This document shows, one piece after another, positions 1 through 33,271 of a DNA stretch of 34,350 nt; position 1 is the first letter of the stretch; each line of letters begins with the position of its first letter. The translations under genes and the position numbers were made by a program. The notes below the pieces were generated by a model, which made no database searches, was not told the DNA's origin, and was given only the letters and a program-made list of their open reading frames with translations. The DNA is taken from contig MEPU01000005.1 of NCBI GenBank assembly GCA_001771815.1, forward strand, positions 66,346-100,695. The letters run 5' to 3'. Source of the stretch: Bdellovibrionales bacterium RIFCSPHIGHO2_01_FULL_40_29 (GTDB lineage: Bacteria > Bdellovibrionota > Bdellovibrionia > Bdellovibrionales > Bdellovibrionaceae).

Positions 1-804
1 CAAAACGTGGTCCTGTTCTGGCGACCTTTTTACTTTATACTCTTTCAAAAAATGCAGAAGATTATCAGAAATTGGAACAATTCTGGCGCGACCTGATTTA
101 GTCGAGCCTAAGCCATTCTTTGAAGTCCATTGCTTAGATACCGATATAATTTTTGAATCAAAATCTATATCCGTCCATTTCAATGCAAACAATTCTCCAG
201 ATCGCATTCCAGTCATCAGGGCCAATGCCCAAATCGGATAGAATTTATGATCTGTTAACTTTGCTTCCTTCAAAAATATTTCAACCTCAGTATTTGTCAG
301 AACTTTTTGTTCGACTTCTGGCACTTTAACCTGAACACCAACACAGGGATTCCGATCTATAAGTCCGTCTTCGACAGCCATTTGAAAAAGTCTTTTTACC
401 ATCTTCAAAATAGTCTTTCGATTGTTTTGAGACACAATGTCCTGACACTTATTAAAAATTGTTTCATACACATCAGTTTTAGAAATATTTTTAATTTCTA
501 TATTTGACCAATGTGGATGAATCCATTTTTTAATCTGGGTTTCATAATTATAGATGGTCGATGGTTTATATTCGATTTTCATGCGTTTAACGCATTCATC
601 GAACCACTCGTGCCACCTAAACGGCACAGCTTCTTCCTTTAACTGAGCAAGTTCACGTTTAAATTCAAATTCAATGGTTTGAGCTTTTCTTAAGCTTTCA
701 ATGGATCTTTTTCTTCTTTGGAATCTTCTTCCGATAGAATCACATCCATTGATATAAACCTCAAAAACCTTTTTACCATTTTCATCATAAGATTTGATTG
801 CCAT
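1..804 (-). CDS. int: Tyrosine recombinase (integrase), 3' end cut by window edge
   Basis: The visible 268 codons start at the ATG at 804. They give an N-terminal SAM-like arm-binding and core-binding region (about residues 60-155) followed by the start of a tyrosine recombinase catalytic domain. The box I signature TGMRSGELFALKW is at about 198-210, with R201 the expected first catalytic arginine. A basic strand with K236 (STKSGRARIVP) fits the catalytic lysine hairpin. The HxxR box and nucleophilic tyrosine lie beyond base 1. The gene sits 1 bp after the excisionase-like gene and is the distal gene of the transfer operon, as expected for the integration module of a conjugative element. The element end and attachment site should lie left of the window. 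Confidence 0.93.
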   Translation of the reverse strand, partial: MAIKSYDENGKKVFEVYINGCDSIGRRFQRRKRSIESLRKAQTIEFEFKRELAQLKEEAVPFRWHEWFDECVKRMKIEYKPSTIYNYETQIKKWIHPHWSNIEIKNISKTDVYETIFNKCQDIVSQNNRKTILKMVKRLFQMAVEDGLIDRNPCVGVQVKVPEVEQKVLTNTEVEIFLKEAKLTDHKFYPIWALALMTGMRSGELFALKWTDIDFDSKIISVSKQWTSKNGLGSTKSGRARIVPISDNLLHFLKEYKVKRSPEQDHVL

Positions 805-805
805 T

Positions 806-1054
806 TTAAAACCCCTTTTTTGAAAAGAGGCTTCGACAATCAGAAAATTTGAATCGCAAACGTCTACCAATTTTGAACGCTTCAATTTGACCACGATGGA
901 CCATAATTCTTAAAGCATTTTCACTCATTGATAAATACCTTGCTGCTTGCTGCGTAGAAAGCCACTCACACTCTATTCGATTTTCAAAGATCCGGGACTC
1001 ATCTTTATTTAACCCCGATACAAGTATTTTCGACATTTTTCTCTCGAAAATCAA
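806..1054 (-). CDS. Excisionase-like helix-turn-helix protein
   Basis: An 82-residue protein with a MerR/excisionase-type winged HTH at about 30-75. The motif WLSTQQAARYLSMSENALR is followed by a wing ending GRRLRFKFSDC. Proteins of this family bind att or promoter DNA as recombination directionality factors or small regulators. The ATG overlaps the upstream gene's stop as ATGA (1051-1054), and the next gene downstream is the integrase, which together argue for an Xis role. An inner ATG at codon 7 is an alternative start. Functional assignment rests on fold plus position. Confidence 0.75.
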   Translation of the reverse strand: MIFERKMSKILVSGLNKDESRIFENRIECEWLSTQQAARYLSMSENALRIMVHRGQIEAFKIGRRLRFKFSDCRSLFSKKGF

Positions 1055-1584
1055 GGTGATTCAAGGTTTAATGAGGCTCTGTTTTTATTTAAATTTGTTA
1101 CTAAATTTGATGAACTAAAATCGCTATGAACAACGCTGTCATCAGCTGCATTTGAGTTGTAGTTTGGTTCATTTTCGCTATTTGAGGTCGCCGGAACTAT
1201 TTCTTTTTTCTTTCGGCCTCGGGTCTTCTTAAGAGTCAATTCTGACTTAACACTTGGTGTCTGAATTAATTTTAAAACATCACTAATTTCGATATTATCT
1301 CCATTCTGCTTGGCCCTAATGGCCTCTTGAGTGGCGTGTTTCAAGGCTTTTACAAGATCATAATTTTCAGATAAAAACTCTGATACTTCTTGTGGTGATA
1401 ATAGCTGAAATCTTTTTCGTATAATAAAGTTTGCAACAGACTTTTGGGTAACTTGAACCAAGTCACCCAATTCTAAATTAATTTGATCTGAAATAGATTT
1501 TATTACTGCAACCGTTGCTGAGTCTAAAATAATTCGTTCAATTTTTTGAGATTCAATTTCAGATTTCATTTTTACTGACTCCAT
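1051..1584 (-). CDS. Conserved-position unknown protein with AT-hook-like basic patch
   Basis: The family is not recognised. The protein is about 177 residues: a helical N-terminal two-thirds with a stretch reading like a dimerisation or DNA-binding helix bundle, a strongly basic segment KKTRGRKKKE resembling an AT-hook core (RGR plus lysines), and then an acidic, asparagine/serine-rich disordered tail. It lies between the lipoprotein and excisionase genes in the transfer operon, so a DNA-binding accessory role in mobilisation or recombination is possible, but this is inference. The start is uncertain: a GTG at 1608 would extend it 8 codons into the lipoprotein gene. The ATG at 1584 gives a shorter overlap and is preferred. 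Confidence 0.65.
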   Translation of the reverse strand: MESVKMKSEIESQKIERIILDSATVAVIKSISDQINLELGDLVQVTQKSVANFIIRKRFQLLSPQEVSEFLSENYDLVKALKHATQEAIRAKQNGDNIEISDVLKLIQTPSVKSELTLKKTRGRKKKEIVPATSNSENEPNYNSNAADDSVVHSDFSSSNLVTNLNKNRASLNLESP

Positions 1585-1814
1585 GACGTTGTCTTTTCTA
1601 AGATCCACATATAATGACCTTCAATATATTTATCGCCTTCAATTTTTTCAGGAACCCAAACCTTATTCACTTTTGGTGCTGTTAATGATGGCGACTTAAT
1701 ATTATCTTTAATTAAAGATTTATTAGAATCCGCTTTATTCTTATTCATTGTAGTACATGCACTCAATCCCATTACCGCTATTACCGCTATTAACGACATT
1801 ATTGCTATTTTCAA
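1572..1814 (-). CDS. Small outer-membrane-type lipoprotein of the transfer operon
   Basis: An 80-residue protein with a classical lipoprotein signal. A hydrophobic stretch ends in the lipobox LSAC, with C20 the predicted lipidated cysteine, leaving a mature part of about 61 residues. The conserved-looking core VWVPEKIEGDKYIEGHYMW resembles short tails of conjugation-associated lipoproteins. The position inside a VirB/Tra operon suggests a VirB7- or TraV-like part of the outer-membrane core complex. It is much shorter than TraV and its place after the coupling genes is unusual, so it may instead be an accessory surface protein. It overlaps the downstream gene. Confidence 0.7.
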   Translation of the reverse strand: MKIAIMSLIAVIAVMGLSACTTMNKNKADSNKSLIKDNIKSPSLTAPKVNKVWVPEKIEGDKYIEGHYMWILEKTTSWSQ

Positions 1815-1826
1815 AACATACTCCTA

Positions 1827-2714
1827 TTAGTAGTGTCTACTGAGGCCCAAATCAGCTTTACTTGCTAAGATGGGAGACCTTGAAATCATTGGATATTTAC
1901 GAACGTCTAACGCAAAATTGGCACAAAACGTTTTGCCCTCGTTTTGCAAAGGCGTTTTTAGGATCTCAATTAATTTTTTACCTTGATGTTTGCCATCAAT
2001 AATTTGTGACTGCCACTGACACTGAATGTAGTGGTCGAGCAGTACAAAACTGTGCTCACCGGCGTTGGTGGAAGAACCCTTTTTTAAATGTGTCAGAATA
2101 TAATTTTTGTAGGACTCTGATCTAACAACCCAAATCACTTGGCAAACGTCAATGGTGTTGGAGTAAAATGCTCCGACATCAGAATAATCTTGTGGTGACT
2201 TCTTTGAAAGCTCAACTTCAAGTGCAATAAGACTTTCTCTATTGTGCTTACCAAGGCCAATTTTCCACCAACCATCAGGACGATGCTCTTTGGTATGAGG
2301 AACCCACTTTGGATAATCGGACAACGCGATTTTTTTTAGCTCTTGTTCGGTAAAGTTGTCGCAGTCGGCTGGTGACCCTTTCAACCACTCGCCAAGATGA
2401 ATGGCTGTGACCCAAAAATCATGATCCTTATTTTCTGATCGAAAACCATTTTCAACAGATACTTTAAACTGAGTGGATAGGGCTTTGTAACCATCGTCGC
2501 CTAAGTGCCAGACAATTGTTTTCTGATCCCATGAACCAGTTGAGATGACAAAATCTTTTTCTTGTAAATCCAAAAGCCGAACGTAACATCCATGAACACT
2601 TCGATTGCTGTAGGCCAATTGATGAATGGCGCTTGTGGAAAGTAACTTCCACCGCCAAAGCATCCAAAGACACTTCATATCTTCATCATTTATTTTAAAC
2701 TGTCGCTTCTTCAA
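1827..2714 (-). CDS. Replication-relaxation-like protein (winged helix plus nuclease-like domain)
   Basis: A 295-residue protein. Residues about 10-75 form a winged-helix domain (LWMLWRWKLLSTSAIHQLAY, then a LLDLQEKDFV helix and wing). The centre carries HRPDGWWKIGLG followed by SLIALEVELSKKSPQDY, an acidic D...ExE...K arrangement seen in replication-relaxation-like proteins and suggestive of a PD-(D/E)XK fold. The start overlaps the end of the FtsK-type coupling gene by 20 bp, so the two are probably translated together. In the absence of an HUH relaxase this is the best candidate for the DNA-processing or DNA-recognition protein of the element. Family placement is from memory of the pattern, not a search. 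Confidence 0.55.
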   Translation of the reverse strand: MKKRQFKINDEDMKCLWMLWRWKLLSTSAIHQLAYSNRSVHGCYVRLLDLQEKDFVISTGSWDQKTIVWHLGDDGYKALSTQFKVSVENGFRSENKDHDFWVTAIHLGEWLKGSPADCDNFTEQELKKIALSDYPKWVPHTKEHRPDGWWKIGLGKHNRESLIALEVELSKKSPQDYSDVGAFYSNTIDVCQVIWVVRSESYKNYILTHLKKGSSTNAGEHSFVLLDHYIQCQWQSQIIDGKHQGKKLIEILKTPLQNEGKTFCANFALDVRKYPMISRSPILASKADLGLSRHY

Positions 2715-4146
2715 CTGACTTTTCCTTGAGTGGTGAACATTTATCCAATTCGGCTTTAGTTTGATCAGGACTTAAAAACGCAGTCTGTACTTCAAACTGA
2801 TCAAGACCTGATTTCCAAACAGCACGACCTGGTATTGACGGCAGTTCTTTGGCTCGGCCATTTCCTAAAATAGAAAAACTTGCGCCAAGTGTTGCCATGG
2901 GGAAGGAAATAATTCCAGTCAGGTTGGCCTTGATCTGCGAACTAATCGCTTTTGAATCTGGCTTTTGAGTCGCTACAATCAAATGAATTCCAACCGCTCG
3001 ACCTTGAGCCGCCAGACGAATTACTTTCCTTGTCATTTCTTGGACTTGGCTGACGTTAATTTTCCCACCTGCTAGAAACAGTTCGGCAGCCTCATCAATC
3101 ACAATAATATTGCGATTCAATTTAAATGTTTCTGCTTTAACACCTTCTGGTAATTTCAACTGATCCTTTGGCTTTTGTTGAAATTCTTCAATGTCTTTGC
3201 ATTGATTGACTTTTAAAAGTTCAAATCTTTCCGTGAGCAATTGATCCAGCACATGAAACTGACTACTGCTATCATTTGGCGTTGATATGACTTTGATTCG
3301 ATCTCGATTTTCAAAGAGTTGGAATTCTAAGCCGCCTTTCATATCAATCAAAGTAAAATTGTAATCCGTGTTGTTGCAATAAAGAGTGGTAATGACCTGT
3401 CGAAGAAAAGTTGATTTACCTCCGCCGGTTTGACCACCAATTAACAAGTGTGGCGTTTCGGTTAGACTTGAATAAATTGTCTTTGCTCTTGTCTGACCAA
3501 CCAAAAACCGATGCTTGCCAATAGATTTCAAATCTTTCATTTCAAACATTTTTGAAATCTCAAAATGCGAATACAATATATCTACAGTACCGCTAGATTT
3601 ACTTTCGCTAATCTCATCAATATAGACTTGAAGTGAACTTTCAAGCCGATCCTTGGATTCATCAAATTTTGCTTTTGACATGAAGGCATTTGTGACACGA
3701 AGTCTTCTAACCAATTCATCCACTGGTTTGTCGAAAATAAAATTTGGCAACTTACCCATTGGACTTTTAAGGCCAGTCTCTTGGAAAACTTCAGTCAATC
3801 TTTGAATCATGTTCGTTTTCTTTCTGGTTTGAATTGCACCCCAAATCCAAAAACCCATCGTGGCCCCAATAAAGGAATACACAGAGTATGCCACTGGATT
3901 TTGTGGATAAAACCAGCCAAGCTTTAAAAACCTAAACATTTTTTGATCAAGATGGCTTAATAACAAAACATCAAAGATTGCACCCCATATTAGTATTGGT
4001 AGATATGGAATCGTATCTTTTCTGATTCCATAGATAATTTCAACGATTGGCTGACCAATTCCAAAGACAAGATTTTTGCATAATTTAATAAAGGCATCTG
4101 TTTGAACTTGTGTTGATTTCAAGTTCTTACTTTGACTGAATATCAA
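2695..4146 (-). CDS. FtsK/TcpA-type coupling ATPase
   Basis: A 483-residue protein with two N-terminal membrane segments (about 44-62 and 83-103) and a RecA-like FtsK/HerA motor domain. Walker A is GGQTGGGKSTF at about 235-245, Walker B is NIIVIDEAAELF at about 344-355, and an arginine/sensor region reads HLIVATQKPD. The C-terminal portion around ISFPMATLGASFSILGNG is typical of FtsK-like pumps. In conjugative elements such proteins replace VirD4 and bring DNA to the type IV channel, as TcpA does in Gram-positive systems. The gene lies between the VirB10-like and replication-relaxation-like genes. A separate chromosomal FtsK role is unlikely given its size and context. Confidence 0.85.
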   Translation of the reverse strand: MIFSQSKNLKSTQVQTDAFIKLCKNLVFGIGQPIVEIIYGIRKDTIPYLPILIWGAIFDVLLLSHLDQKMFRFLKLGWFYPQNPVAYSVYSFIGATMGFWIWGAIQTRKKTNMIQRLTEVFQETGLKSPMGKLPNFIFDKPVDELVRRLRVTNAFMSKAKFDESKDRLESSLQVYIDEISESKSSGTVDILYSHFEISKMFEMKDLKSIGKHRFLVGQTRAKTIYSSLTETPHLLIGGQTGGGKSTFLRQVITTLYCNNTDYNFTLIDMKGGLEFQLFENRDRIKVISTPNDSSSQFHVLDQLLTERFELLKVNQCKDIEEFQQKPKDQLKLPEGVKAETFKLNRNIIVIDEAAELFLAGGKINVSQVQEMTRKVIRLAAQGRAVGIHLIVATQKPDSKAISSQIKANLTGIISFPMATLGASFSILGNGRAKELPSIPGRAVWKSGLDQFEVQTAFLSPDQTKAELDKCSPLKEKSVEEATV

Positions 4147-4148
4147 AT

Positions 4149-5057
4149 TTACTCCCCTTCAAACAAAACATAAAATTCTTTGCCGCTATCGACTTGAATT
4201 ACGGACTTCTTACTTTTCAAATCTGATAAAACTTCTTGTGACTGATCGAGAGCAGCTTTTGATGCGCCGTTAAGTGCCGCATTTTTTAAATCTGACTTTT
4301 TAGTGGCAACACCGTTTTGAACCTGGCTTTCTTGCAATCCTTCGGCAACACCACCTAAAAAATTTAATCCAGCACCCGTTGCCAACAGAACAGCATATTT
4401 ACTTAGCTTTTTTCCTTTGACGCCAACTGTTTGATCAGACAGATCACAACCCTGAGCTTGAATACTTTGTGATTTACCATCTTTGTATACAAGCTTGGTA
4501 AACTGAACACTTAGTCGGTCTTCGCCGGAACTGCCAGAACCAACCAGAATGGTGCCTTCAGGCGCAATATCTTCACCGTTAATTGCCAGAGCCTCTGCAA
4601 GAATGGCCTTTAAAGGACCATTAGAGGCACCCGTAATGAATTTTGCTTTAACCATTGTTCCCGGAGGAATCTTTCCTAAATTGGGTCTTCCAATAACCTG
4701 AGGTGCAGAAAAATAAACCACGGTTTTTACTTTGCGACCAAAAGACTGGGGCTTGTTGAATTCAGAATTTCCGCTGGCTATTTTAATTTTATCTGACTCT
4801 GATAAGTTAGAGCCCATTTGCTCGCTAAAACCTATGGGTTTTGAATTTTCTGTCGGGGTTGGCTTAAAAAACTCTGACATAATCGAATAAGCACTGCCTA
4901 TCAAAATAAATAGACTGAACATCCACGCTGTTACTTTGGCATTAATACTTAGCTTTCGACCTTCTTTGCGATAGAGTAATTTTTCAAGACCCCATCGTCG
5001 TTTATGCCCGTCATCCCCGACCAGGCTTACTTTAACTTCTTCGTCCAACGTTACCAC
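4149..5057 (-). CDS. virB10: VirB10/TraB/TrbI-like T4SS core protein
   Basis: A 302-residue protein with a cytoplasmic tail of about 40 residues, one membrane segment at about 42-60, a short periplasmic linker and the C-terminal beta-barrel domain. The hallmark IPPGTMVKAKFITG, the later IAPEGTILVGSGSSG and a TKLVYKDGKS strand are typical of the VirB10/TrbI family, which spans both membranes and gates the channel. The linker lacks the long proline-rich region of many relatives, so the protein is at the short end of the family. It starts immediately after the VirB9-like gene (gap 0) and ends 2 bp before the coupling ATPase gene. Confidence 0.88.
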   Translation of the reverse strand: MVTLDEEVKVSLVGDDGHKRRWGLEKLLYRKEGRKLSINAKVTAWMFSLFILIGSAYSIMSEFFKPTPTENSKPIGFSEQMGSNLSESDKIKIASGNSEFNKPQSFGRKVKTVVYFSAPQVIGRPNLGKIPPGTMVKAKFITGASNGPLKAILAEALAINGEDIAPEGTILVGSGSSGEDRLSVQFTKLVYKDGKSQSIQAQGCDLSDQTVGVKGKKLSKYAVLLATGAGLNFLGGVAEGLQESQVQNGVATKKSDLKNAALNGASKAALDQSQEVLSDLKSKKSVIQVDSGKEFYVLFEGE

Positions 5058-5483
5058 CTATTTGAAAGGAACTTTTATTTTTGATTCTTCGGGATCACGA
5101 ACAAGAATTAAATTATCGTGATTAACTGAAGACGACATAAGTTGAAACCCGCATCTTCGCCCAAATAGATACACAAAGAGATTCGTTCGCGAATTTGACG
5201 ATAACGCCGTTAAGGCAAGATCATTTTTGATGTACTCAATTGCAAATTGATTTTTTCCACCTAAAACCACATTATCAGGCTTTACAGGAAAATTTATAAT
5301 CGTGCTGAAACTTGGTCTTACATAAACTTGAATCATTTTGGATTCGACACACTTGACAGTTCTTAATGACGTTTTTGCCTCAGCATCGTTGACAAGCACT
5401 TGCAGCATTGCCGCCATGCCTAGAAAAATTAAAATAATCCTCAATTTTTTCAAAATTGAAAAATTCCTATCTTTCAAAGTCAT
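5058..5483 (-). CDS. VirB9/TraK-like T4SS core protein, short form
   Basis: A 141-residue exported protein. The signal peptide spans about 1-36 and ends AEA. It is followed by beta-rich sequence (SFSTIINFPVKPDNVVLGG, LFVYLFGRRCGFQLM) like the N-terminal domain of VirB9/TraK/TrbG, which forms the inner part of the outer-membrane core complex. The usual C-terminal domain that contacts VirB7 and VirB10 is absent. The protein is therefore about half the length of VirB9 and shorter than TraK. It has a 4-bp overlap with the VirB8-like gene and abuts the VirB10-like gene, the standard B8-B9-B10 order, which is much of the evidence. Confidence 0.65.
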   Translation of the reverse strand: MTLKDRNFSILKKLRIILIFLGMAAMLQVLVNDAEAKTSLRTVKCVESKMIQVYVRPSFSTIINFPVKPDNVVLGGKNQFAIEYIKNDLALTALSSNSRTNLFVYLFGRRCGFQLMSSSVNHDNLILVRDPEESKIKVPFK

Positions 5484-6028
5484 TTTGATTCACCCGTTTT
5501 TGATTTGTCTTCAATTTGCTTAGTAGAAACAATCAACAAACCATAAGGGTTTGCAAGTGATCTTGATTTAGATTCAAGTTTTACTGCAAGCGAAAACTTG
5601 AACGCAGATCTAACGTCGCCGACCGAAATTACTCGATCTGCATCGACCTTAAAGCCTTCGACAGTTTCAGTGACAAAGTTAACAATTAAGCGTTGCTTCA
5701 TGTTTCGAGATGCAAATTCCTTTTGTTCCTGATCTCGAAGTTTTAATTCATCTGGAGACAACAATCCATCTGTTGCCATCACCAAAGAGTCAAATCTTTG
5801 CGACAAAGCTTCCCGTAAGAAATTTTCTACTTCTTGCTTCGAATGTTCATCTTTAGTTGGCTGAACAGATCTTGAAAAGCAACCACGTTCAATAATCACT
5901 GAGTCTTTGAAAGACATTTTCAAGGTGATCAATGTTAAAAGAACTGATAGTGCCCCTAAAAGTATTGTGACGACTTTTAAATTAAAATTTTGCGATACGA
6001 CTGAAGACCACGCTTCTGTGTATTTCAT
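5480..6028 (-). CDS. VirB8/TraE-like T4SS inner-membrane protein
   Basis: A 182-residue protein with a short cytoplasmic end, one membrane helix at about 18-36 and a periplasmic domain. The layout (long helix with VENFLREALSQRFDSL, acidic helix ELKLRDQEQKEF, then strands QRLIVNFVTETVEGFKVDADRVISVG) fits the TraE branch of the VirB8 family, which nucleates assembly under the outer-membrane core. It lies between VirB6-like and VirB9-like genes, with a 4-bp ATGA overlap to the latter. Sequence similarity is diffuse, so the call depends on topology and order. Confidence 0.75.
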   Translation of the reverse strand: MKYTEAWSSVVSQNFNLKVVTILLGALSVLLTLITLKMSFKDSVIIERGCFSRSVQPTKDEHSKQEVENFLREALSQRFDSLVMATDGLLSPDELKLRDQEQKEFASRNMKQRLIVNFVTETVEGFKVDADRVISVGDVRSAFKFSLAVKLESKSRSLANPYGLLIVSTKQIEDKSKTGESK

Positions 6029-6043
6029 GATATAAACTCCCCG

Positions 6044-6961
6044 TTATGCTTTAATTTGTTTTTGCGATTTATTATTTGCTGAATGTTTCTGATTTTTTTT
6101 ATTAAAACTTTTGTTTCCACTGCTCTTTGAAAAATAGCTTTTCCCATTAGAAATCGTCTTTGAAGCTAAACTTTTCGTTGCACCAATAGTTCGACTTGGA
6201 CTAATGGTCATTCCCCCAATTGCTAATGAACTTAAATCCTTACCCATCGCCGAAAGTCCACTTCCCGCTAGCGCGTGAACGATAAATGGAGTGAGTAACA
6301 ACGACCCCGCCAAAATGATATTAAAGCCAATCGCCGTCAAAAAGCTTACTTGTGTTCCGTCTTGATTGATCTGACTTAAAGCGCTACTCCATAGTAGCGT
6401 TGCAATGACTGACCAAACAATTTTCCAGCAGGCCACTTCTATCAATGATCTAAATAAAGCTGATGTTGCTGACGCCGTGACTGGCAATACATAAAGCGCT
6501 ATCAAAAGTGGCGAAAACACATACAGCATCACCCAAACATAAATGTAGAAGCTATCGGCAATATGAATCGAAAAATACAAAATGAAAAATGTTAGAAAAC
6601 TGATGAGTAGCATGATTGTTTCTTTGAAACTGACCCATGACCATGAAAGTTCACCAACTTTATCCCCCATTTTATCTAATATCATTTTAAAATTATTCAA
6701 ATCACCAAGTCTTGCGGCCATAGCGTCTGTGACATCTGCAATCGTATTCGTAATTTCTGGATAAGCATGAAGCAAAAGTGCTGCTATCAGAGCACGACCG
6801 ACGATTGTCCCAAAGTTGGGAACGCCGCCGATGGGCCATTTAAAGTATTCTATGGCGATCCCTAATAGCATTAGCACTGTAATCACAAGATAAAAGTATC
6901 CTGAAAATATCTCGTGAATCTTTTTTGCTTCTGTTGCTAGCCAAGCAATATCTGAAATCAT
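6044..6961 (-). CDS. VirB6/TrbL-like polytopic membrane protein
   Basis: A 305-residue protein with about six hydrophobic segments (near 20-40, 52-66, 108-135, 138-160, 175-195 and 205-235). It ends in a basic, serine/lysine/asparagine-rich tail (about 255-305), likely cytoplasmic. Such proteins form part of the inner-membrane platform through which substrate passes. The central segment before the third helix contains an amphipathic loop, as in TrbL/VirB6. The gene follows the VirB5-like gene by 9 bp and precedes VirB8-like, which is the expected order. Confidence 0.75.
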   Translation of the reverse strand: MISDIAWLATEAKKIHEIFSGYFYLVITVLMLLGIAIEYFKWPIGGVPNFGTIVGRALIAALLLHAYPEITNTIADVTDAMAARLGDLNNFKMILDKMGDKVGELSWSWVSFKETIMLLISFLTFFILYFSIHIADSFYIYVWVMLYVFSPLLIALYVLPVTASATSALFRSLIEVACWKIVWSVIATLLWSSALSQINQDGTQVSFLTAIGFNIILAGSLLLTPFIVHALAGSGLSAMGKDLSSLAIGGMTISPSRTIGATKSLASKTISNGKSYFSKSSGNKSFNKKNQKHSANNKSQKQIKA

Positions 6962-6970
6962 AATTTCTCC

Positions 6971-7654
6971 TTAAAATCTAGGCGCTACAAACTGAATTTT
7001 TTCTTTCTTCATAGCGACCCGTAGGGTATTGGCAGTTTCCAGATACTGTTTCGTTGAATCTTTTTCTTTTTTGTTTTGCACAGCCATCGTTTGCGCCTGA
7101 AGTTTTAATCCAGTGGCCTGGGTTCTAAGGCTTTGATTCATAACCTGAAGCATAACTCCTAAAGTTTGAGCCGTTAGTTTTTGGGCCCCACCTGGAGAAA
7201 CGTCATGACTAAATTCTTTAATGGCCTCGCCAAGTTCATCGATGTTTTGGGTGTACTTATAAATATCATTATTCAATGTTACGGCTTCAGCTACGTTTTG
7301 ATCTGTGTCTGAATAAACTTTTGAATTTGGCGAGCTTGTGACTATTCCATAAATCGTTTGCAGCTTTATAAGCGCGTCACCGACATTTTGCCAGTCCTTG
7401 TAAATTCCTGGATCAATATTTGGATCAATAGTTCTTGCCAGTTGCAATGAGTCGTTGATACCGCGATTAATTTCAGTCAAAAGGTTTAGCTGATCCTTTC
7501 CATTATCAACCATGTTTTTTAGCTCTGTTAGCTGCTTTATTGCGTTCGCTAGTATCTGCGCCAGATAAACTAGGTCGCCACCAAACATATCTGCCTTTGC
7601 AGGTGATGAAACCAACATTGAAGCCGCCATGAAAAATGAAATCAATTTTTTCAT
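6971..7654 (-). CDS. VirB5/TrbJ-like exported T4SS protein
   Basis: A 227-residue protein with a clear signal peptide (MKKLISFFMAASMLVSS, cleavage probably after AKA near 21). A long, mostly helical mature region is rich in Q, N and L (IKQLTELKNMVDNGKDQLN, LRTQATGLKLQAQTMAVQN). This is the pattern of TrbJ/VirB5, the minor pilus or entry component. Its start overlaps the VirB4 stop by 4 bp. The Q/K-rich C-terminal helices would form the usual coiled-coil bundle. Confidence 0.78.
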   Translation of the reverse strand: MKKLISFFMAASMLVSSPAKADMFGGDLVYLAQILANAIKQLTELKNMVDNGKDQLNLLTEINRGINDSLQLARTIDPNIDPGIYKDWQNVGDALIKLQTIYGIVTSSPNSKVYSDTDQNVAEAVTLNNDIYKYTQNIDELGEAIKEFSHDVSPGGAQKLTAQTLGVMLQVMNQSLRTQATGLKLQAQTMAVQNKKEKDSTKQYLETANTLRVAMKKEKIQFVAPRF

Positions 7655-10068
7655 AATTGAGTCCGTGTCTGTTGATGAGCAGCAACACCTCGTGGAAAAT
7701 CTAAAGCAAGTTTTTTTAAAATTTCAAGCTGTGAAATTTCAGGATTTTGCTTTTTGTAGTCTTCAATTTTACCTAGATCACGACCGTCGGTTGTTGCAAG
7801 CCAGTATTCAAGAGGCGTTGATTCAATAATAACGACAGCTCTGGAATCTTCGGCCATTAGAAAGGCTTCTGAATAAGATCCCCGCTCTTGACCTAATGAG
7901 GCAATCAGATCCACTTCGTTTGGATTAAGTCCTAATACCTCTTTAAGACGATCCTTATCTGCGCCTTTTTGCTTCAGGACCCACTTAATCGATGAATTCG
8001 GAAGAATCGCGTTGGCGATTTTACTTTTTGCGAAGTCATCAATATTTTGTGAGATAGCAATCGCGGATGCCATGTACTTTCTAAATGTTCTGAACACCTC
8101 CGCTATAAATAATGAAGCTGAGTCATTTTCCATCAACTTCCAACACTCATCAAGAATCAGAAATTTCATTTTAGATTTATCAGCTTGGACTTCACGCCAA
8201 ACAAAATCTGTAATGATAAACAAACATGCCGATTGTAGATCTGGATATGACTCCATTCCTTTCAGGTCAAAGCAGACAACAGAACGCTTTAGTTCTAAAG
8301 TCGTTTTTTGATCAACAAATTTCCCATAAGGCGAATTTCCGCACCAACTTGTTAAAATTTTGCCAATACGCTGAATATTAATGTCTTCATGATCAAGTAG
8401 AAGTTTTCTTAAATCTGATAGTCTTGGATTTTTTGAAAACTCATAAACTTTTTCAATCGCTGATTCAATTTCAGACTTTTCAAGTTTACCCAACTGAAGC
8501 TTTTCATTTTCTTTAGTCATGATTTCAACAAGACTTAAGATGAATTTTACTTTCTGACTGGTGGGTTTCGTTTCCCCAATCGTCAAATCAAACGGATTTA
8601 TTGACAAATCGGTATCAACACCCAGTTGAATATACTGGCCGTTAAAATTATCACAGATCTTTTTGTAAGAACCCCCAATATCAACGATAAATATTTTCGG
8701 ATTTTCCTTCATCATTTGCATCATCAGAATGTTAGTCATATAAGACTTACCACTTCCCGACCCACCGCTGACTATTTGGTTCGAATTCGTCAGCTCGCTT
8801 GTGAATGGATTGAAACTGACAAGACTACCTAAACGCGACCTAAGCAAAATCTTAGGATCTGTATGACCACCCCAAGGACCATAAACTGGAAGTAGATCAC
8901 ACAAATTTGAAGTTTTGATTCTTTTTACTCGTTCTTTACAGCGTGAATTTGGAATGGCTGATTCACTAAAAATATCAAACGCAGCCAAAGTTTCTTCCAT
9001 TGCCTCAGCACCGGCCATTTCACGAATCTTTACTAAAACTTCTGAGACTTTATTATCTAAGTCATCTAATGATGTCGACCGCACTAGAACTTGCAAGTTC
9101 ATGTGAAAAACCTTTTCACCGTGTGAAACCATCTGCTCAAGTAAAGTTTCAAGATCTCGAAATTTAGCTTCGGATTCTAAATCAGTAACGCCCACTCTTT
9201 TTCCTGAAACCATAGAAAATGCGATCCTGCGTTGGGTCTGCAAGGTCTCTAGCTCTTTTTGTTGATTCGGCACATGGACTGTGAGCGACAATCTGGTATC
9301 AAACGGAAGCTCCCGCAGTTTTGCCGCCATAACTGCATAAGTTTGATCCGGCAACAGCTTTAGCGTGATGACTCTGTAATTGTAGTCGCTCATCACAAAG
9401 CCTTTTTGATCAATGCCAACATCAGTGAATAGTAATCCGCTTCGAATATTGTCAGGGTTAACAGAGCCTAGAGCAATTTTACGATTTGGATTCCATTGCT
9501 GATACATGAGCTTCAGAAGAATTTCAGGACTCAAAAGTTCTGGTTCAAGACCCATTGCCGATAAACTTGAATTCAGGTCGTGCGAAAGTCGCTCGCTGGC
9601 TGCAAGCTCGTGCTTTAGTTTATCTTCTGCAATCATTTGAAAATCAGATGTATTCGAAAAAAAACTGGCCTTCTTCAATAACGAACTTATTGGTTTTCTT
9701 CTAACAAACAACATAAGCCCATGACTGGGTAGCAATCCGTCAGAATCTAATTCAGAAAACTTTAAAACCCTTGCTGCTGTTAGCTCACGAACGACATCAC
9801 TCTCTGAAATGTCTGACAGTTGATGCTTACTGATGATTTCATTATTGCCAGATTTGATGTCGCTCACCAGTTGAAAATCTATTTCTGGAGGCAATCCATT
9901 CAAAAATTGAATCAATTTTTGGGAATAATCATTGGCTTGATCTACGGACCAACAACTTGCATCTGTGGGTTTAAGCTTAAAACCTATGCCGAATGAACCA
10001 TCGGTAAAAATGATGTGATTTTCTTCCAGTCCCCAGACTTGCAAGTAATCAGCTAATTTTGCACTCAT
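7651..10068 (-). CDS. virB4: VirB4/TraC-family T4SS ATPase
   Basis: An 805-residue protein of the usual VirB4/TraC length. The N-terminal domain (about 1-400) carries the TraC-type pattern ending before the P-loop SGGSGSGKSYM at about 430-440. Walker B is KFLILDECWKLM at about 633-644, followed by ISQNIDDF and the C-terminal LKQKGADKDRL segment. The ATPase drives pilus biogenesis and substrate transfer at the inner membrane. It overlaps the TraL-like gene upstream and the VirB5-like gene downstream by 4 bp each, so it is tightly coupled. With no VirB11 present, this and the FtsK-like protein are the only motors seen for the apparatus. Confidence 0.95.
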   Translation of the reverse strand: MSAKLADYLQVWGLEENHIIFTDGSFGIGFKLKPTDASCWSVDQANDYSQKLIQFLNGLPPEIDFQLVSDIKSGNNEIISKHQLSDISESDVVRELTAARVLKFSELDSDGLLPSHGLMLFVRRKPISSLLKKASFFSNTSDFQMIAEDKLKHELAASERLSHDLNSSLSAMGLEPELLSPEILLKLMYQQWNPNRKIALGSVNPDNIRSGLLFTDVGIDQKGFVMSDYNYRVITLKLLPDQTYAVMAAKLRELPFDTRLSLTVHVPNQQKELETLQTQRRIAFSMVSGKRVGVTDLESEAKFRDLETLLEQMVSHGEKVFHMNLQVLVRSTSLDDLDNKVSEVLVKIREMAGAEAMEETLAAFDIFSESAIPNSRCKERVKRIKTSNLCDLLPVYGPWGGHTDPKILLRSRLGSLVSFNPFTSELTNSNQIVSGGSGSGKSYMTNILMMQMMKENPKIFIVDIGGSYKKICDNFNGQYIQLGVDTDLSINPFDLTIGETKPTSQKVKFILSLVEIMTKENEKLQLGKLEKSEIESAIEKVYEFSKNPRLSDLRKLLLDHEDINIQRIGKILTSWCGNSPYGKFVDQKTTLELKRSVVCFDLKGMESYPDLQSACLFIITDFVWREVQADKSKMKFLILDECWKLMENDSASLFIAEVFRTFRKYMASAIAISQNIDDFAKSKIANAILPNSSIKWVLKQKGADKDRLKEVLGLNPNEVDLIASLGQERGSYSEAFLMAEDSRAVVIIESTPLEYWLATTDGRDLGKIEDYKKQNPEISQLEILKKLALDFPRGVAAHQQTRTQL

Positions 10069-10388
10069 GTAGACTTCCTTTGTAAAAGAGTTGGAGCAGG
10101 CGTTTGATTTGTTGGATCATCAAAGGCTGAAAGAATACCCGGCTTGATTTGAAATCTGAGCCAATGAATTAGGTAATTGTCAGGCTTTCCGCGCTTAGTG
10201 AGTTTAATCGTTAAAGCGATTGCAGCACTTGGCAGCCAGACAAAAAGCATCTTCAAGTTGGTTGTTCCAAACAGAAAATTTAAAATCGACATCGTTAAAA
10301 AAATGAAAAGCAAATCTGGAATTTCATAACCCATGATCATCATTTTTTTGTCCAAGCATCGACTGACTTCGGTCACTTTTAATTCCAT
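10065..10388 (-). CDS. TraL/VirB3-like membrane protein
   Basis: A 107-residue protein with two adjacent membrane helices (about 24-42 and 45-62) and a cytoplasmic C-terminal part containing the TraL-like run KRGKPDNYLIHWLRFQ. TraL/VirB3 proteins sit in the inner membrane next to VirB4, and some are fused to it. Here the stop overlaps the VirB4 start by 4 bp (ATGA). It lies just downstream of the pilin gene, the canonical B2-B3-B4 order. The ending is proline/threonine-rich. Confidence 0.8.
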   Translation of the reverse strand: MELKVTEVSRCLDKKMMIMGYEIPDLLFIFLTMSILNFLFGTTNLKMLFVWLPSAAIALTIKLTKRGKPDNYLIHWLRFQIKPGILSAFDDPTNQTPAPTLLQRKST

Positions 10389-10443
10389 TTTAAAAACTCC
10401 AAAAAAGTTAGGCCTCCGATTAAACGAAAGCCCTTTGTTAAAA

Positions 10444-10728
10444 TTAGTGAATCAATGATTGAATCCAACTCACGATACTAGGCGCTCCGAAACCAATAGC
10501 GGCGCCTATGATGGCAAGAACCAAATGGTTTCTGGCATTGGGACTACCGGCAACAAACGAAAGCCCTGCGAAGACAAGACCGATGATGGCGACCAACGGT
10601 AATATTGTTCCGATCAGTTTTGATTGAACTGCTGCAAGGCTGGACTCGACGCTACAGAAACCAAGCAATGGAAACGCAACTATAAGAATCAATGTGATAG
10701 CAGAAAACACTTTTTGATTGTTCAACAT
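10444..10728 (-). CDS. VirB2/TrbC-type major pilin
   Basis: A 94-residue protein with an N-terminal signal/membrane segment (about 8-25, FSAITLILIVAFPLLGF) and two further hydrophobic helices (about 38-62 and 68-90). They are separated by a short polar loop, SPNARNH. This hairpin topology and length match VirB2/TrbC/TraA pilins. It lies 55 bp upstream of the TraL-like gene and is probably cleaved after the first segment. The 55-bp gap is one of the larger ones in this operon. Confidence 0.85.
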   Translation of the reverse strand: MLNNQKVFSAITLILIVAFPLLGFCSVESSLAAVQSKLIGTILPLVAIIGLVFAGLSFVAGSPNARNHLVLAIIGAAIGFGAPSIVSWIQSLIH

Positions 10729-10731
10729 GAC

Positions 10732-11091
10732 CTACTCCTTATGATTTTGTTTTTGTGGATAAAGTGACATGTACACATAGGCCCGTAACATCGGAAATCG
10801 AACTTCTAAATAGCTTTGAAGTTTTGAATCCAAAACACCATTCCCAACGGGATTCAGAAATTTCAATTGCTTTTTATTATCGACGATCATTCGGGAATAG
10901 ACTGTGTACTTATCAGCAGCATTTTGATTTTTAACCAGATAGTAAGTATATCCTGGAAACATCATAAGCCTAATTTTGTAGTAGCTCACGCCATCATCTT
11001 TAAATGCGGCTCCCACTAAAAGCTTTGCTTCAATTACGTTGTCTTTACGAAATCCGGTGAAGATTTCATGTTTTTCACTTTGCATATTCAT
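10732..11091 (-). CDS. Unknown protein upstream of the pilin gene
   Basis: The family is not recognised. A 119-residue soluble protein with no signal peptide or membrane segment. It is rich in aromatic strands (SYYKIRLMMFPGYTYYLVKN, then a helix-like C terminus AYVYMSLYPQ), suggesting a compact alpha/beta fold. It lies 3 bp before the pilin gene and 1 bp after the preceding gene, so it is part of the transfer operon. A regulatory, single-strand-binding-like or chaperone role could fit but nothing in the sequence decides it. Confidence 0.7.
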   Translation of the reverse strand: MNMQSEKHEIFTGFRKDNVIEAKLLVGAAFKDDGVSYYKIRLMMFPGYTYYLVKNQNAADKYTVYSRMIVDNKKQLKFLNPVGNGVLDSKLQSYLEVRFPMLRAYVYMSLYPQKQNHKE

Positions 11092-11092
11092 T

Positions 11093-11428
11093 TTAAATTC
11101 CTTTGTTAGTTAAATTACGATCACACGTAACGCGAACTTCTTTTTGAAGTTCTAAAAATTTGTTAAAAACTAGATTTCTAGATTTTTCAGTAGGAGTTAA
11201 TAATTCCCACAAAAAACTCAGATCAGTTTCTAACTGCCTAAGGTTCAATTTTGTTTGTTCGTCGATTCGTTGAACTTGTTTTAAAAGCTCAAGTTGATTC
11301 TCTATTTCTTGAATTTTACGAGTCATTTTTGAATTAACTGCCAGCTCGAGCACACTCAAAGTTCCGTACCAGTCACGAAACAGTTTTTGAATTTTAGATG
11401 ATTCATGACTTAAAAATATTTTTGCCAT
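11093..11428 (-). CDS. Unknown small coiled-coil protein
   Basis: The family is not recognised. A 111-residue protein, almost entirely helical. A heptad-like stretch in the middle (KIQEIENQLELLKQVQRIDE then LNLRQLETDLSFLWELL) predicts a coiled coil at about 38-80. There is no signal peptide. It overlaps the preceding gene by 19 bp and is followed 1 bp later by the next, so translation is coupled. The coiled coil suggests oligomerisation or an adaptor role in the transfer operon, but that is inference. Confidence 0.7.
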   Translation of the reverse strand: MAKIFLSHESSKIQKLFRDWYGTLSVLELAVNSKMTRKIQEIENQLELLKQVQRIDEQTKLNLRQLETDLSFLWELLTPTEKSRNLVFNKFLELQKEVRVTCDRNLTNKGI

Positions 11429-11631
11429 AAGTCTTTCGCCCGATTTCTATCAATTTCTTTTTGCGGCTCAAAATCTTTGAATTCCGGTGGCAGCGGCTCA
11501 CTGACCATAAATTCTTTGTTAAACCAACTTCGAACTTTTCGAGTGGCTTCGCTCACTTTTCGTCGTGAAATTTTAAAGTTTTCAGATTCAAAAAAAATCT
11601 GCTCTAAAATCCCTGGCTTTTTCTGTTGCAC
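11410..11631 (-). CDS. Unknown 73-residue first gene of the transfer operon
   Basis: The family is not recognised. This is the leading gene of the minus-strand operon, basic and helical in the middle (SRRKVSEATRKVRSWF), suggesting nucleic acid or protein binding. Translation begins at a GTG at 11631 supported by a near-perfect ribosome site, GGAG with 5-6 bases of spacing (11634-11641 on the plus strand read in reverse). First-position small basic proteins in such operons are often regulators, but no HTH is clear. Confidence 0.7.
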   Translation of the reverse strand: MQQKKPGILEQIFFESENFKISRRKVSEATRKVRSWFNKEFMVSEPLPPEFKDFEPQKEIDRNRAKDLWQKYF

Positions 11632-11651
11632 TTATTCTCCTTTTTTAGTTG

Positions 11652-11842
11652 TGAGACTCTAACGGTCTCGAAAGGTAATAAGAGCAAAGCCGTGCCAAGC
11701 GGTTTGAACAGTCGCGAAAAATGTTAAGTGCTTAATTTTATTTTGATTTTATGATTTAACTCGAGTCTCAACGTTGAGACTGAGTCTCACGAGTCTCAGC
11801 GCGAGTCTCACTGACGTCATGCAAAATGAGACTGGAGTCTCA
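11652..11842. promoter_or_regulatory. Cluster of TGAGACT/AGTCTCA operator-like sites
   Basis: The 311-bp gap between the transfer operon and the plus-strand gene holds a repeated half-site. AGTCTCAACGTTGAGACT at 11764-11781 is a perfect 18-bp palindrome. GAGTCTCA recurs in direct orientation at 11763, 11782, 11791, 11803 and 11835. TGAGACT-GG-AGTCTCA at 11827-11842 is a second inverted repeat. A looser pair, GAGAC...GTCTC, sits at 11653-11669 close to the start of the operon. The layout looks like a cooperative operator or activator array. Protein identity is not shown by the sequence; the NtrC-type regulator at 16185-17555 is a candidate. Confidence 0.7.
11683..11698 (-). promoter_or_regulatory. 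Sigma-54-like promoter element with short spacing
   Basis: Read on the minus strand, TTGGCACG at 11698-11691 and TTGCT at 11687-11683 match the -24 and -12 elements of sigma-54 promoters. The GG and GC doublets are separated by 9 rather than the usual 10 bases, which normally impairs function. The operon's first GTG is about 50 bases downstream and the palindromes are about 65-145 bases upstream, the usual geometry for NtrC-type enhancers. It may be a degenerate or chance match. Confidence 0.35.
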
Positions 11843-11942
11843 GGCTAGGCGAAATTGAAACTGGTGCAAAACTGTACCTGAGCCTTCAATATTATGCTAC
11901 TATCCTTCATACGAATAGTAATATTTCGGAAAGAAGTTAAGA

Positions 11943-20379: not shown

Positions 20380-20458
20380 TAGACAATGAGACTATTCCTT
20401 TGTCAACTTATTGAAATGAATAGGTTTTCGAGTAAAACTATTGAGACTCGAGTCTCAA
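20380..20458 (-). promoter_or_regulatory. Sensor operon promoter with TGAGACT/AGTCTCA palindrome
   Basis: TTGAGACTCGAGTCTCAA at 20441-20458 is a perfect 18-bp palindrome with the same half-site as the array at 11652-11842. Downstream on the minus strand, TTGACA (20405-20400) is followed after 17 bases by TCTAAA (20382-20377), a good sigma-70 promoter. Its spacer contains another half-site (TGAGACT at 20387-20393 on the plus strand). No sigma-54 element is seen. The arrangement suggests autoregulation. Confidence 0.65.
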
Positions 20459-26882: not shown

Positions 26883-28001
26883 ATGAGTGAAAAATTTAGT
26901 TTTTCAGATGTTTATGATAAAAATTTAAATTTTCTGATTGGCTCAGGAGCTTCTTTTGGTTTATTTCCCACTTTACAGCTCAAAATTAAAGGACAAGATG
27001 GTTCCGCTCAAACTATCGAAACACTTGCTACAAAATTTGATAAAGACAAGGATGAAAAGAAGAGAACTCTCCTTTTTATGCACTATTACAAAACGTGCAT
27101 AGAGCCAGTTCTAGAATTTGATCTTGAGGCTACAAGTGCTGACGCAGGAAAAAAAGCAGTTATCAACAATTATGAGAAATTCATTAAAACCATACTTTCA
27201 ATTCTGAAAAAAAAGAAAAGCAATGATCTTAAAATTTGCAATATGTTCACTACTAATTACGATGGCTGTTTTGCACATGTAGCTGATGAAATTATCAAGA
27301 CTGGAGTTGAAGAATTTGTTTTAAATGATGGTACTAGAGGTTTTTTTCGTCGACATCTATCGGCTAAAAACTATAATTCACACGTCAGGCAATCAGGAGT
27401 GTTTGACAAGTTTTCAACACAAGTGCCTCAAATAAATCTTATTCATATTCATGGATCTGCATATTGGAAGAAGGAAGATGATAATATTCTCGTCGATTAT
27501 AGAGGATTTAATCAAAAAATCGACATGAGCTTAGTTCCGGATATCAGTTCTTTTTCAGCCGTTTTGAATGACGAATCCAAGAAAATTTCCGACATTCAAG
27601 ATGTTGATCTCACTGATAAACAGATCAGCGATTTTTGGGAAAAATATAACTCTCTTCCCATAGTGAATCCAACAAAATGGAAGTTTTACGAAACATTATT
27701 TGAAGAACACTACTATCAAATGCTACGCCACTTAAGCTACGAGCTTGAAAAGCCCGGCTCAGTCCTAATTACTTTCGGCTTTTCATTCGCTGATGAGCAT
27801 ATTTTGAACTTGATAAAGCGTTCGCTAGGAAATCCAACTTTGCAGGTTTTTGTTTCATGCTTTAATGAAAGTGAACGCACTCTTTTGGCTAGAAAGTTTG
27901 ATAAATTTAAAAATATCACATTTTTAACAGGAATTGGTGGAAATCTTGATTTTTCAAATTTTAATGATGAGATTTTCACTATGAAAGAATCTTCTAAATG
28001 A
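26883..28001 (+). CDS. SIR2-family NADase-like defence protein
   Basis: A 372-residue protein with SIR2 signatures. NLNFLIGSGASFGLF at about 15-29 is the NAD-binding GAS loop. The TTNYDG box is at about 122-127, IHIHGSAYW at about 187-195 carries the active-site-type histidine, and ITFGFSFADEH lies at about 297-307. It lacks the zinc-binding domain of deacetylase sirtuins. In characterised systems SIR2 with HerA forms a complex that depletes NAD or cleaves DNA on infection. It starts 13 bp after the GIY-YIG gene and overlaps the HerA start by 4 bp, linking it to the preceding restriction-like genes. Confidence 0.9.
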   Translation: MSEKFSFSDVYDKNLNFLIGSGASFGLFPTLQLKIKGQDGSAQTIETLATKFDKDKDEKKRTLLFMHYYKTCIEPVLEFDLEATSADAGKKAVINNYEKFIKTILSILKKKKSNDLKICNMFTTNYDGCFAHVADEIIKTGVEEFVLNDGTRGFFRRHLSAKNYNSHVRQSGVFDKFSTQVPQINLIHIHGSAYWKKEDDNILVDYRGFNQKIDMSLVPDISSFSAVLNDESKKISDIQDVDLTDKQISDFWEKYNSLPIVNPTKWKFYETLFEEHYYQMLRHLSYELEKPGSVLITFGFSFADEHILNLIKRSLGNPTLQVFVSCFNESERTLLARKFDKFKNITFLTGIGGNLDFSNFNDEIFTMKESSK

Positions 28002-29764
28002 GTGTCAGCATAGGCGAGGTAATCGCGGTAGAGGGTATATCAATCACGATAAAAATGTTCGAAGATTCGAACAAAGATGTTTTGTTTTTCGCTGGAGAAA
28101 AATACAAAGGTATTTCTATCCGTGAGCATCTACTTATTCAGAGGGGCTTCATAGATATTGTCTGCATTGTCGAAGGAGAATTTTTAGATGAAAACAAAAC
28201 TGAATATGAAGGAAATAGACTAATCTATACTCGGAAAATTAAAGTCAGGCCTATTGGGTATTACAAAGATAATAGTTTCAATGAGGGTGTTAAATTTTTA
28301 CCTATGATTAAAGACTTAGCCTCTTTGATTTCTGAAGATAAAATTGCAGCCATATATAATAAAAACAGCAAAAATTCTCTTTCAATCGGAAAGATGCTAA
28401 AGGAAGAGCTTCCGGTTTATCTTCCGTGGAAAAAACTATTTAATACGCATATTGGAATTTTTGGAAACACTGGAAGCGGAAAATCAAATACACTTACAAA
28501 GCTTTATACTTCATTGTTCAGTGAAAAACTATTGTCAATTAAAAATAAAAGTCATTTTATTTTGTTAGATTTTAATGGCGAGTACACAAGTGAACAGCTA
28601 CTTCAAACAACTGATAAAGAGGTCATTCATTTAAATACTAAAGATGCAAAAGATAGATTTCCACTAAGAGAAGATGAATTTTGGGAATCAGAGACCCTCA
28701 GCCTGCTATTCCAAGCGACAATAAATACTCAACGCCCTTTCTTGCGAAGGATTATTGATGGTCGAAACAAATATGCTGCAAATGCTGATAGTTTGGCTGT
28801 TTATACAAAAGCAATTTTCAGAGACGTATTTTCTTCTGCCGCGCAAAAACCTGATTGTCTTGAGTTGCTTAGAACAATTTCAAGAATTATTAAAAATGAT
28901 CTACTTTCGGAAAAGTTGAAGAATATTTCTTGGTACTCTCAAGGATCAAAGTTTACATTATTGGCTGGCTCAACCGTTGTGTATTTTAACGCCGGTGGCA
29001 CAGAGTATGATGCGAATTTAAAGGCAGATGTTGATCAGTTAAGTGTCAATGTAGATCACTTTGATGAACTTTTACTAAGAGCAAATATTCGACTTTGTAA
29101 CGATCTGCTGCATGGATATGTTCAATTCGACCATATTCAGCCGTTGCTTAAAAGAATCGAATCAAATCTTACTGGTCTAAAAAAAGTTCTCTGCGTGGTG
29201 ACTGAAGACCAGGTTAGAAAAGTTCTAACAGTTATTTCATTGCGAAAATGCAGCTCAGAAGTAAAAAAAATTCTACCTTTGCTAGTAGCAAAGCACTACT
29301 ACAATCAACATAAAAACAATGTCCAGAATCCACCTGACAAAACCCTACATCTAATTATTGATGAGGCTCACAATATCTTATCAGAGCAATCAACTCGGGA
29401 GAGCGAAAGCTGGAAAGACTACAGGCTTGAACTTTTCGAAGAGATTATCAAAGAGGGCCGAAAATTTGGAATGTTCTTGACTATTTCTAGCCAACGGCCA
29501 GCTGACATTTCTCCAACAATTGTTTCGCAAATTCACAATTTTTTTATCCATCGTCTTGTCAATGACCGCGACTTACATTTAATTGACAATACGATTAGTA
29601 CACTTGATCGCCTCTCAAGAGAATTAATTCCAACATTGCCAAAAGGAGCCTGTGTAGTCACTGGAACATCCTTTCCGTTGCCAATGGTAGTTGTCGTAGA
29701 CTTGCTTGATAGAAGCAAACAACCGGATAGTGAAGATGTTGATTTGGAAACTCTATGGAATTAG
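27998..29764 (+). CDS. herA: HerA/DUF87-type hexameric ATPase
   Basis: A 588-residue protein. An N-terminal HAS-barrel region (about 1-110, VIAVEGISITIKMFEDS then KVRPIGYY) precedes the P-loop IFGNTGSGKSNTL at about 151-163. DFNGEY at about 191, HLIIDEAHNIL at about 451-461 and FLTISSQRPADISP at about 493-506 complete a HerA motor. HerA translocases form hexamers and partner with nucleases (NurA) or SIR2. The gene is coupled by 4 bp to SIR2 and by 10 bp to the downstream nuclease gene, so either could be a partner. Confidence 0.93.
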   Translation: MSVSIGEVIAVEGISITIKMFEDSNKDVLFFAGEKYKGISIREHLLIQRGFIDIVCIVEGEFLDENKTEYEGNRLIYTRKIKVRPIGYYKDNSFNEGVKFLPMIKDLASLISEDKIAAIYNKNSKNSLSIGKMLKEELPVYLPWKKLFNTHIGIFGNTGSGKSNTLTKLYTSLFSEKLLSIKNKSHFILLDFNGEYTSEQLLQTTDKEVIHLNTKDAKDRFPLREDEFWESETLSLLFQATINTQRPFLRRIIDGRNKYAANADSLAVYTKAIFRDVFSSAAQKPDCLELLRTISRIIKNDLLSEKLKNISWYSQGSKFTLLAGSTVVYFNAGGTEYDANLKADVDQLSVNVDHFDELLLRANIRLCNDLLHGYVQFDHIQPLLKRIESNLTGLKKVLCVVTEDQVRKVLTVISLRKCSSEVKKILPLLVAKHYYNQHKNNVQNPPDKTLHLIIDEAHNILSEQSTRESESWKDYRLELFEEIIKEGRKFGMFLTISSQRPADISPTIVSQIHNFFIHRLVNDRDLHLIDNTISTLDRLSRELIPTLPKGACVVTGTSFPLPMVVVVDLLDRSKQPDSEDVDLETLWN

Positions 29765-33213: not shown

Positions 33214-33271
33214 TCTCCCCCGCCCTTTAGAAATCAGAAAAATTTAATTTTTTAAAATGGAGATTTTAGTC

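Follow-up and report, generated by a model that had tools for sequence, protein, structure and literature searches.

What does a type IV secretion system (T4SS) carry when its operon encodes a VirB-type pore and an FtsK-like ATPase with no visible HUH relaxase, VirB11, or VirD4? The question is raised by a 34,350-nt stretch of Bdellovibrionota DNA (contig MEPU01000005.1, positions 66,346-100,695; hereafter the window) from a 2.93 Mb genome that is 99.99% complete. The module genes all lie on the minus strand in a single tight operon, which runs from three small genes through virB2, B3, B4, B5, B6, B8, a short B9, and B10 to the coupling ATPase, a winged-helix/nuclease gene, a lipoprotein gene, a 185-aa gene, an excisionase-like gene, and a tyrosine integrase. 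We propose that the locus is most likely an integrative and conjugative element (ICE) moving DNA via conjugation, and that its winged-helix/PD-(D/E)XK protein is a candidate relaxase of the known non-HUH family MOBC.

The candidate (295 aa, 1827..2714) combines an N-terminal winged helix with a C-terminal PD-(D/E)XK-type motif, D147...E166-V-E168...K172...Y177. In a family alignment of 32 relatives, HRPDG, A-x-E-V-E-L, K172, Y177, and Y184 are near-invariant. When the alignment was repeated with 22 sequences, W20, K23, H98, D147, G148, E166, E168, Y184, and W195 were invariant and K172 and Y177 nearly so. The catalytic residues are thereby conserved and aligned with those of MobC, the RPDG...ALEVELSKKS...Y stretch of the family falling on PDA...AFEVERTVKS...Y. 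Compared with a gammaproteobacterial MobC profile built from CloDF13-like, Vibrio, Shigella, Klebsiella, and E. coli plasmid proteins, the family profile matches over both wing and nuclease (hhalign 97.8%, E 8.5e-13), while the controls, a reversed MobC profile and nine other module gene families, were negative (<=0.6%). Moreover, the family profile recovers all seven MOBC proteins tested (1.6e-9 to 3e-4), including pAD1-like TraX (here the replication-relaxation protein of the pAD1-like plasmid pTEF1), and finds no match to MOBT (Orf20) or MOBF (TrwC). This link is about as strong as that between gammaproteobacterial MobC and pTEF1 TraX (8.7e-7). MOBC is a restriction-endonuclease-like relaxase family backed by active-site mutagenesis (PMC12857230), of which the proteins described here would form a diverged subfamily.

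Gene order agrees with that of known MOBC loci. The type IV coupling protein (T4CP) gene lies directly upstream of the relaxase gene, as in seven plasmid MOBC loci examined, two of which have one small gene in between. Thus, the protein resembles MOBC relaxases such as CloDF13 MobC and pAD1-type TraX in its winged helix, its PD-(D/E)XK-like motif (P)D...E-x-E...K...Y, its adjoining coupling-protein gene, and its profile-level homology. In contrast, the T4CPs of the plasmid loci are annotated as VirD4/TraM-recognition type, whereas the coupling partner here is of TcpA type. A preliminary description of this DNA had named the winged-helix/PD-(D/E)XK protein as the only DNA-processing candidate, which holds; it is not an odd leftover, since profile match and position beside the coupling protein point to a MOBC relaxase.

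Winged-helix and PD-(D/E)XK domains are common, and the window protein scores weakly by itself, so that it might be read as a regulator or restriction-type nuclease, with the relaxase encoded elsewhere or the element defective. This reading is quite improbable given a profile match that spans both domains and is backed by negative controls, the adjoining T4CP gene, module reading frames that are intact throughout within the window, and a genome in which the four HUH/MOBH relaxase families searched are absent. PF03432, PF08751, PF03389, PF07514, and PF02534 are all missing from the whole genome, a search that did not extend to MOBV and MOBT. Among the open reading frames of the window and 24 related loci (some of them duplicates, L065/L006 and L066/L005), queries for VirB11, lytic transglycosylase, VirD4, and HUH relaxases returned nothing, except for one marginal VirB11 match (E 0.007) to a tcpA ATPase; VirB1, VirB11, VirD4, and an HUH relaxase had likewise been reported as lacking. 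An HUH relaxase outside the window was considered and rejected after searching the left flank and the genome: the integrase ends ~290 bp beyond the left edge and is followed by chromosomal-type genes, and on the right the contig ends. Without VirB11 and VirD4, the system falls outside the MPF_T (VirB/D4) T4SSs. The annotated transfer region of the F plasmid also lacks VirB11, so its absence is by itself not strange.

The coupling ATPase (2695..4146) was described as FtsK-like, in agreement with its PF01580 FtsK_SpoIIIE match (2e-20). Searched against the Protein Data Bank (PDB), its family profile finds 6o1z/6o1w/6o1x, a "DNA translocase coupling protein" that we take to be pCW3 TcpA, at 2.1e-57 (198 bits), followed by FtsK (3.4e-36, 128 bits) and, far behind, the VirD4-type TrwB (0.05). 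Over the stretch tested, the 6o1z chain is 62% identical to an FtsK-domain protein of an Enterocloster plasmid that also encodes TcpD, TcpE, and a MOBM relaxase. Among coupling proteins, the profile scores 180.6 bits (2.6e-56) with Enterocloster TcpA and 53.8 with Tn916 Orf21, and every VirD4-type protein stays at <=13. A review cites a TcpA entry as 6OZ1 (PMC12857230).

Having an FtsK_SpoIIIE domain and resembling TcpA more than it does VirD4 or FtsK, the ATPase belongs to the TcpA protein family; its system context differs. It shares with TcpA of the Clostridium pCW3 Tcp system and with Tn916 Orf21 a single central FtsK_SpoIIIE domain, the best structure match, and the score to pCW3-like TcpA, yet it stands beside a VirB10-containing pore and a MOBC relaxase in a diderm phylum. 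Further, the system is not of the Gram-positive MPF_FA type: its pore includes VirB10, VirB9, and a lipoprotein, and VirB4 lies outside the FA clade. TcpA has been described as restricted to a subset of Gram-positive MPF_FA systems in a 2025 review (PMC12857230) and as unrelated to all Gram-negative coupling proteins (PMC4701971), and in streptococcal integrative and mobilizable elements (IMEs) it was never observed together with MobC (PMC5357655). The present locus shows that the range of TcpA-type coupling proteins extends beyond Gram-positive systems. Some Gram-negative plasmid proteins that match TcpA are annotated as FtsK or occur in unrelated contexts.

Because the ATPase falls within the FtsK/SpoIIIE superfamily, and a separate HerA-type defence gene is present at 27998-29764, it might instead be a housekeeping or defence translocase placed there by chance, the true coupling protein being missing. 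This is hardly credible: the profile prefers TcpA (198 bits) over FtsK (128) in the PDB and scores 180.6 bits with TcpA of a Gram-positive Tcp locus, and the gene lies between virB10 and the relaxase gene in the related loci wherever both neighbours are present.

The pore itself comprises the full set of equivalents listed in the preliminary description (VirB2, B3, B4, B5, B6, B8, B9, and B10), all at the positions given there and recognised by profile matches, except VirB8, identified by predicted fold, and VirB6, identified by position and a relative. The VirB4/TraC ATPase (7651..10068) matches P-loop_TraG (1.5e-45) and the TraC-F-type model (2.5e-87, below its curated cut-off). The VirB10/TrbI-like protein (4149..5057) matches TrbI (3e-16), and its family aligns with F TraB (hhalign 95.3%, 2.2e-8). 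They are joined by a VirB2-like pilin (10444..10728; TrbC 4.3e-6), a VirB3/TraL-like protein (10065..10388; weak matches to DUF3487, 2.1e-4, and TIGR03750, 6.9e-4), and a VirB5-like protein (6971..7654; TIGR02791 0.0018, hhalign to TrwJ 66.5%, 5.4e-5). For the VirB6-like membrane protein (6044..6961), a relative matches Pfam TrbL (3.5e-4), and hhalign gives 56.6% to a 309-aa protein at the same position in a Myxococcus plasmid. The VirB8-like protein (5480..6028) has no Pfam match; its structural model (predicted local distance difference test, pLDDT, 75.7) gave Foldseek and VIA matches to VirB8 structures, with Z 11-13 against VirB8 crystal structures (CagV and Brucella VirB8 at Z 12-13), and this predicted structure settles that the protein folds like VirB8.

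VirB9 (5058..5483) is indeed of half length, as first described, comprising only the N-terminal domain (TIGR02781 6.6e-4, profile positions 8-114 of 248); hhalign of its family against single TrwF or TraK sequences was not significant. The protein measures 123-161 aa in every relative, so the shortness is a family trait rather than a truncation. The small lipoprotein (1572..1814), with a lipobox and a conserved VWVP..IEG.KYIEGH motif, has 18 family members, some with a glycine-zipper. Its gene accompanies the pore genes and is missing from the pore-less loci L061 and L063 described below; the protein is a VirB7/TraV-like candidate. Apart from two oversights, this gene and the membership of the winged-helix/PD-(D/E)XK protein in MOBC, the component list stands. 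In the VirB4 tree, where branches are long, the Bdellovibrionota pore is a separate clade (100/99) that is excluded from the FA clade (100/100). It falls in the part of the tree that holds F, R388, Thermus, and Myxococcus, with no firm place there. Judged from these sequences, the pore is of diderm type.

The module recurs across the phylum. At E <= 0.001, 66 of 369 Bdellovibrionota genomes match the relaxase, and 57 matches reach E <= 1.4e-16. The order B2-B3-B4-B5-B6-B8-B9-B10-tcpA-relaxase-lipoprotein-orf185-xis-int is kept in the 24 loci wherever contig ends allow. Pairwise relaxase distances correlate with those of tcpA (0.77), VirB10 (0.77), and VirB4 (0.69) and hardly with those of the integrase (0.07), values obtained without phylogenetic control; they suggest that the relaxase evolves with the transfer genes and not with the integrase. 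The relaxase family also occurs where no pore genes were found in the stretch read: L061 (7602-11961) combines tcpA and relaxase with a serine recombinase, next to gcvT/gcvH; L063 (12958-15263) has relaxase, xis, and integrase; and in L064 (180-1928) the relaxase is accompanied by a fragment of a serine recombinase close to a contig end (recombinase and gcv genes named by sequence inspection). These look like small IME-like, mobilizable elements sharing the relaxase family, which they combine with tyrosine or serine recombinases. Searches for relaxase homologues in plasmids and viral contigs found none, and a PDB sequence search with the family gave nothing significant.

These data bear on the suggestion that the channel carries protein instead of DNA. 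An effector T4SS in a mobile island would suit the facts that protein is the cargo of some T4SSs, that the hosts belong to a predatory group, and that no origin of transfer (oriT) was found. Such an apparatus is nevertheless very improbable here, as the pore genes are accompanied by, and evolve with, those of a MOBC relaxase and a TcpA-type DNA translocase, beside integrase and xis in many loci, and the relaxase is also present in pore-less IME-like elements. No effector candidates were recognised, with no systematic search for them. With a MOBC relaxase next to its coupling protein, the module is expected to serve DNA conjugation, and secretion of protein alone is unlikely.

Integrase, relaxase, T4CP, and T4SS thus lie on one element, and relatives carry the same set. 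The tyrosine integrase (1..894, cut by the window edge; Phage_integrase 1.5e-12) is complete in the left flank (395 aa, L002:16053-17240). Next to it lies an excisionase-like HTH_17 protein (82 aa, 806..1054; HTH_17 9.4e-11) with a counterpart at the same place in relatives. It is therefore very probable, as far as sequence can tell, that an integrated element with integrase, excisionase-like gene, MOBC-type relaxase, TcpA-type coupling ATPase, and reduced diderm-type pore transfers by conjugation.

Several observations weigh against this assignment. The window relaxase alone scores 15.2 bits with PF13814 (Replic_Relax), equated with MobC in CONJscan (PMC5357655), below a cut-off of 25.3 that is a library threshold and not a biochemical feature; membership rests on the family profiles. 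The relaxase of one relative, at 13.3 bits, is also below this cut-off, and ordinary annotation misses the window relaxase for this reason. An AlphaFold relaxase model from four sequences was poor (pLDDT 45.7) and does not confirm the nuclease fold. Moreover, no attachment direct repeats of at least 13 bp were detected between the left edge and the window, no right boundary was found before the contig ends at the window's right edge, and neither an oriT nor a VirB1 or VirB11 equivalent was found.

If the ICE assignment is correct, integrase and excisionase would excise the element, and the MOBC protein would nick one strand at oriT, perhaps within 11632-11942, a region that could equally be an operator. 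A TcpA-like hexamer would then take up the nicked DNA and pump it into the pore, with VirB4 as the sole recognised pore ATPase, and the integrase would insert the element into the recipient. TcpA is reported to be similar to FtsK, a motor for double-stranded DNA, and MOBC relaxases are reported to form no visible covalent intermediate with DNA (PMC12857230). On these grounds, what this diderm machine passes through its VirB10-type pore may conceivably be double-stranded DNA, or nicked DNA without a covalently attached relaxase at its head, which we regard as unlikely. The pairing of an FtsK-like motor with a relaxase that has no known covalent intermediate offers, in a diderm, a new setting in which to test whether single- or double-stranded DNA is moved. 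The parts each belong to known families; their combination (MOBC, TcpA, and diderm pore) and the host phylum appear new within the open-access literature searched. The locus adds a diverged MOBC subfamily missed by the curated Pfam model. It also adds a widespread family of ICEs and IMEs in a phylum of predatory bacteria for which that literature reports none.

The intergenic region at 11632..11942 contains eight copies of AGTCTCA/TGAGACT, the highest 7-mer repeat count among the 311-bp stretches sampled in the window (maximum 6 in 500 mononucleotide shuffles), and is a candidate operator or oriT. The nearest relatives do not share these repeats, so comparison does not distinguish operator from oriT. 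At the same place, directly before the first operon gene, three relatives have a conserved dyad, GAGTGGCGCGCACTC (L004:8400-8425, L005:8400-8420, L007:8225-8245), which is absent from the window. An Rfam search gave no match. Three further AGTCTCA/TGAGACT copies, including the palindrome TGAGACTCGAGTCTCA, are intergenic at 20387-20457, before the defence genes, and possibly form an operator shared with the tra promoter.

Two further sets of operon genes are conserved. Three small genes (119, 111, and 73 aa; 10732..11631) at the head of the operon are conserved in closer relatives. The 185-aa protein (1051..1608), with no Pfam family, was found as 18 frames in 25 sequences scanned; its gene always lies between lipoprotein or relaxase and xis/int, a position that makes a relaxosome accessory protein possible.

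The pore has two partial counterparts. As in F-type (MPF_F) T4SSs, VirB11 is missing, the F TraC model is the best match of VirB4, and VirB10 matches F TraB; in contrast, the TraC score is about half the cut-off (293.6 versus 567 bits), and Pfam/NCBIfam scans recognised no TraU/W/N/F/H/G-type genes among the module genes. By bit score, the best match among plasmid VirB4 proteins is that of the Myxococcus stipitatus plasmid pYRE (L151), which has a similar order of small gene, VirB4, VirB5-size, VirB6, and VirB8-size genes and a T4CP followed by a 240-aa gene, although its T4CP is annotated as TraM-recognition (VirD4) type. The plasmid pYRE is typed as non-mobilizable; its T4SS region (L151:8949-19368) pairs a VirD4-type T4CP with a 240-aa protein containing a PDALL...VRVEYVSAKY stretch. 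This protein is not significantly MOBC-like by profile and is possibly an unrecognised relaxase.

Left of the integrase lie TetR, SDR, and thiolase-like genes (named by sequence inspection) and, at L002:15607-16000, the apparent tail of a second tyrosine integrase (MNYVHL...), which suggests an older element at the same site. A comparison of integration sites in the genus via the TetR gene found no ortholog close enough. At the right end, 33257-34348 encodes a second methionyl-tRNA synthetase, which is divergent and shares only ~30% identity with the genus's regular copies; this metG was rejected as right chromosomal flank owing to that divergence and to the contig stopping inside the gene. 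Between 20897 and 31900, the window carries defence-type cargo: an MmeI-like type IIG restriction-methylation enzyme, a DEAD helicase, a T5orf172/MUG113 protein, a SIR2-HerA pair, and a DUF2779/Cas4-like nuclease.

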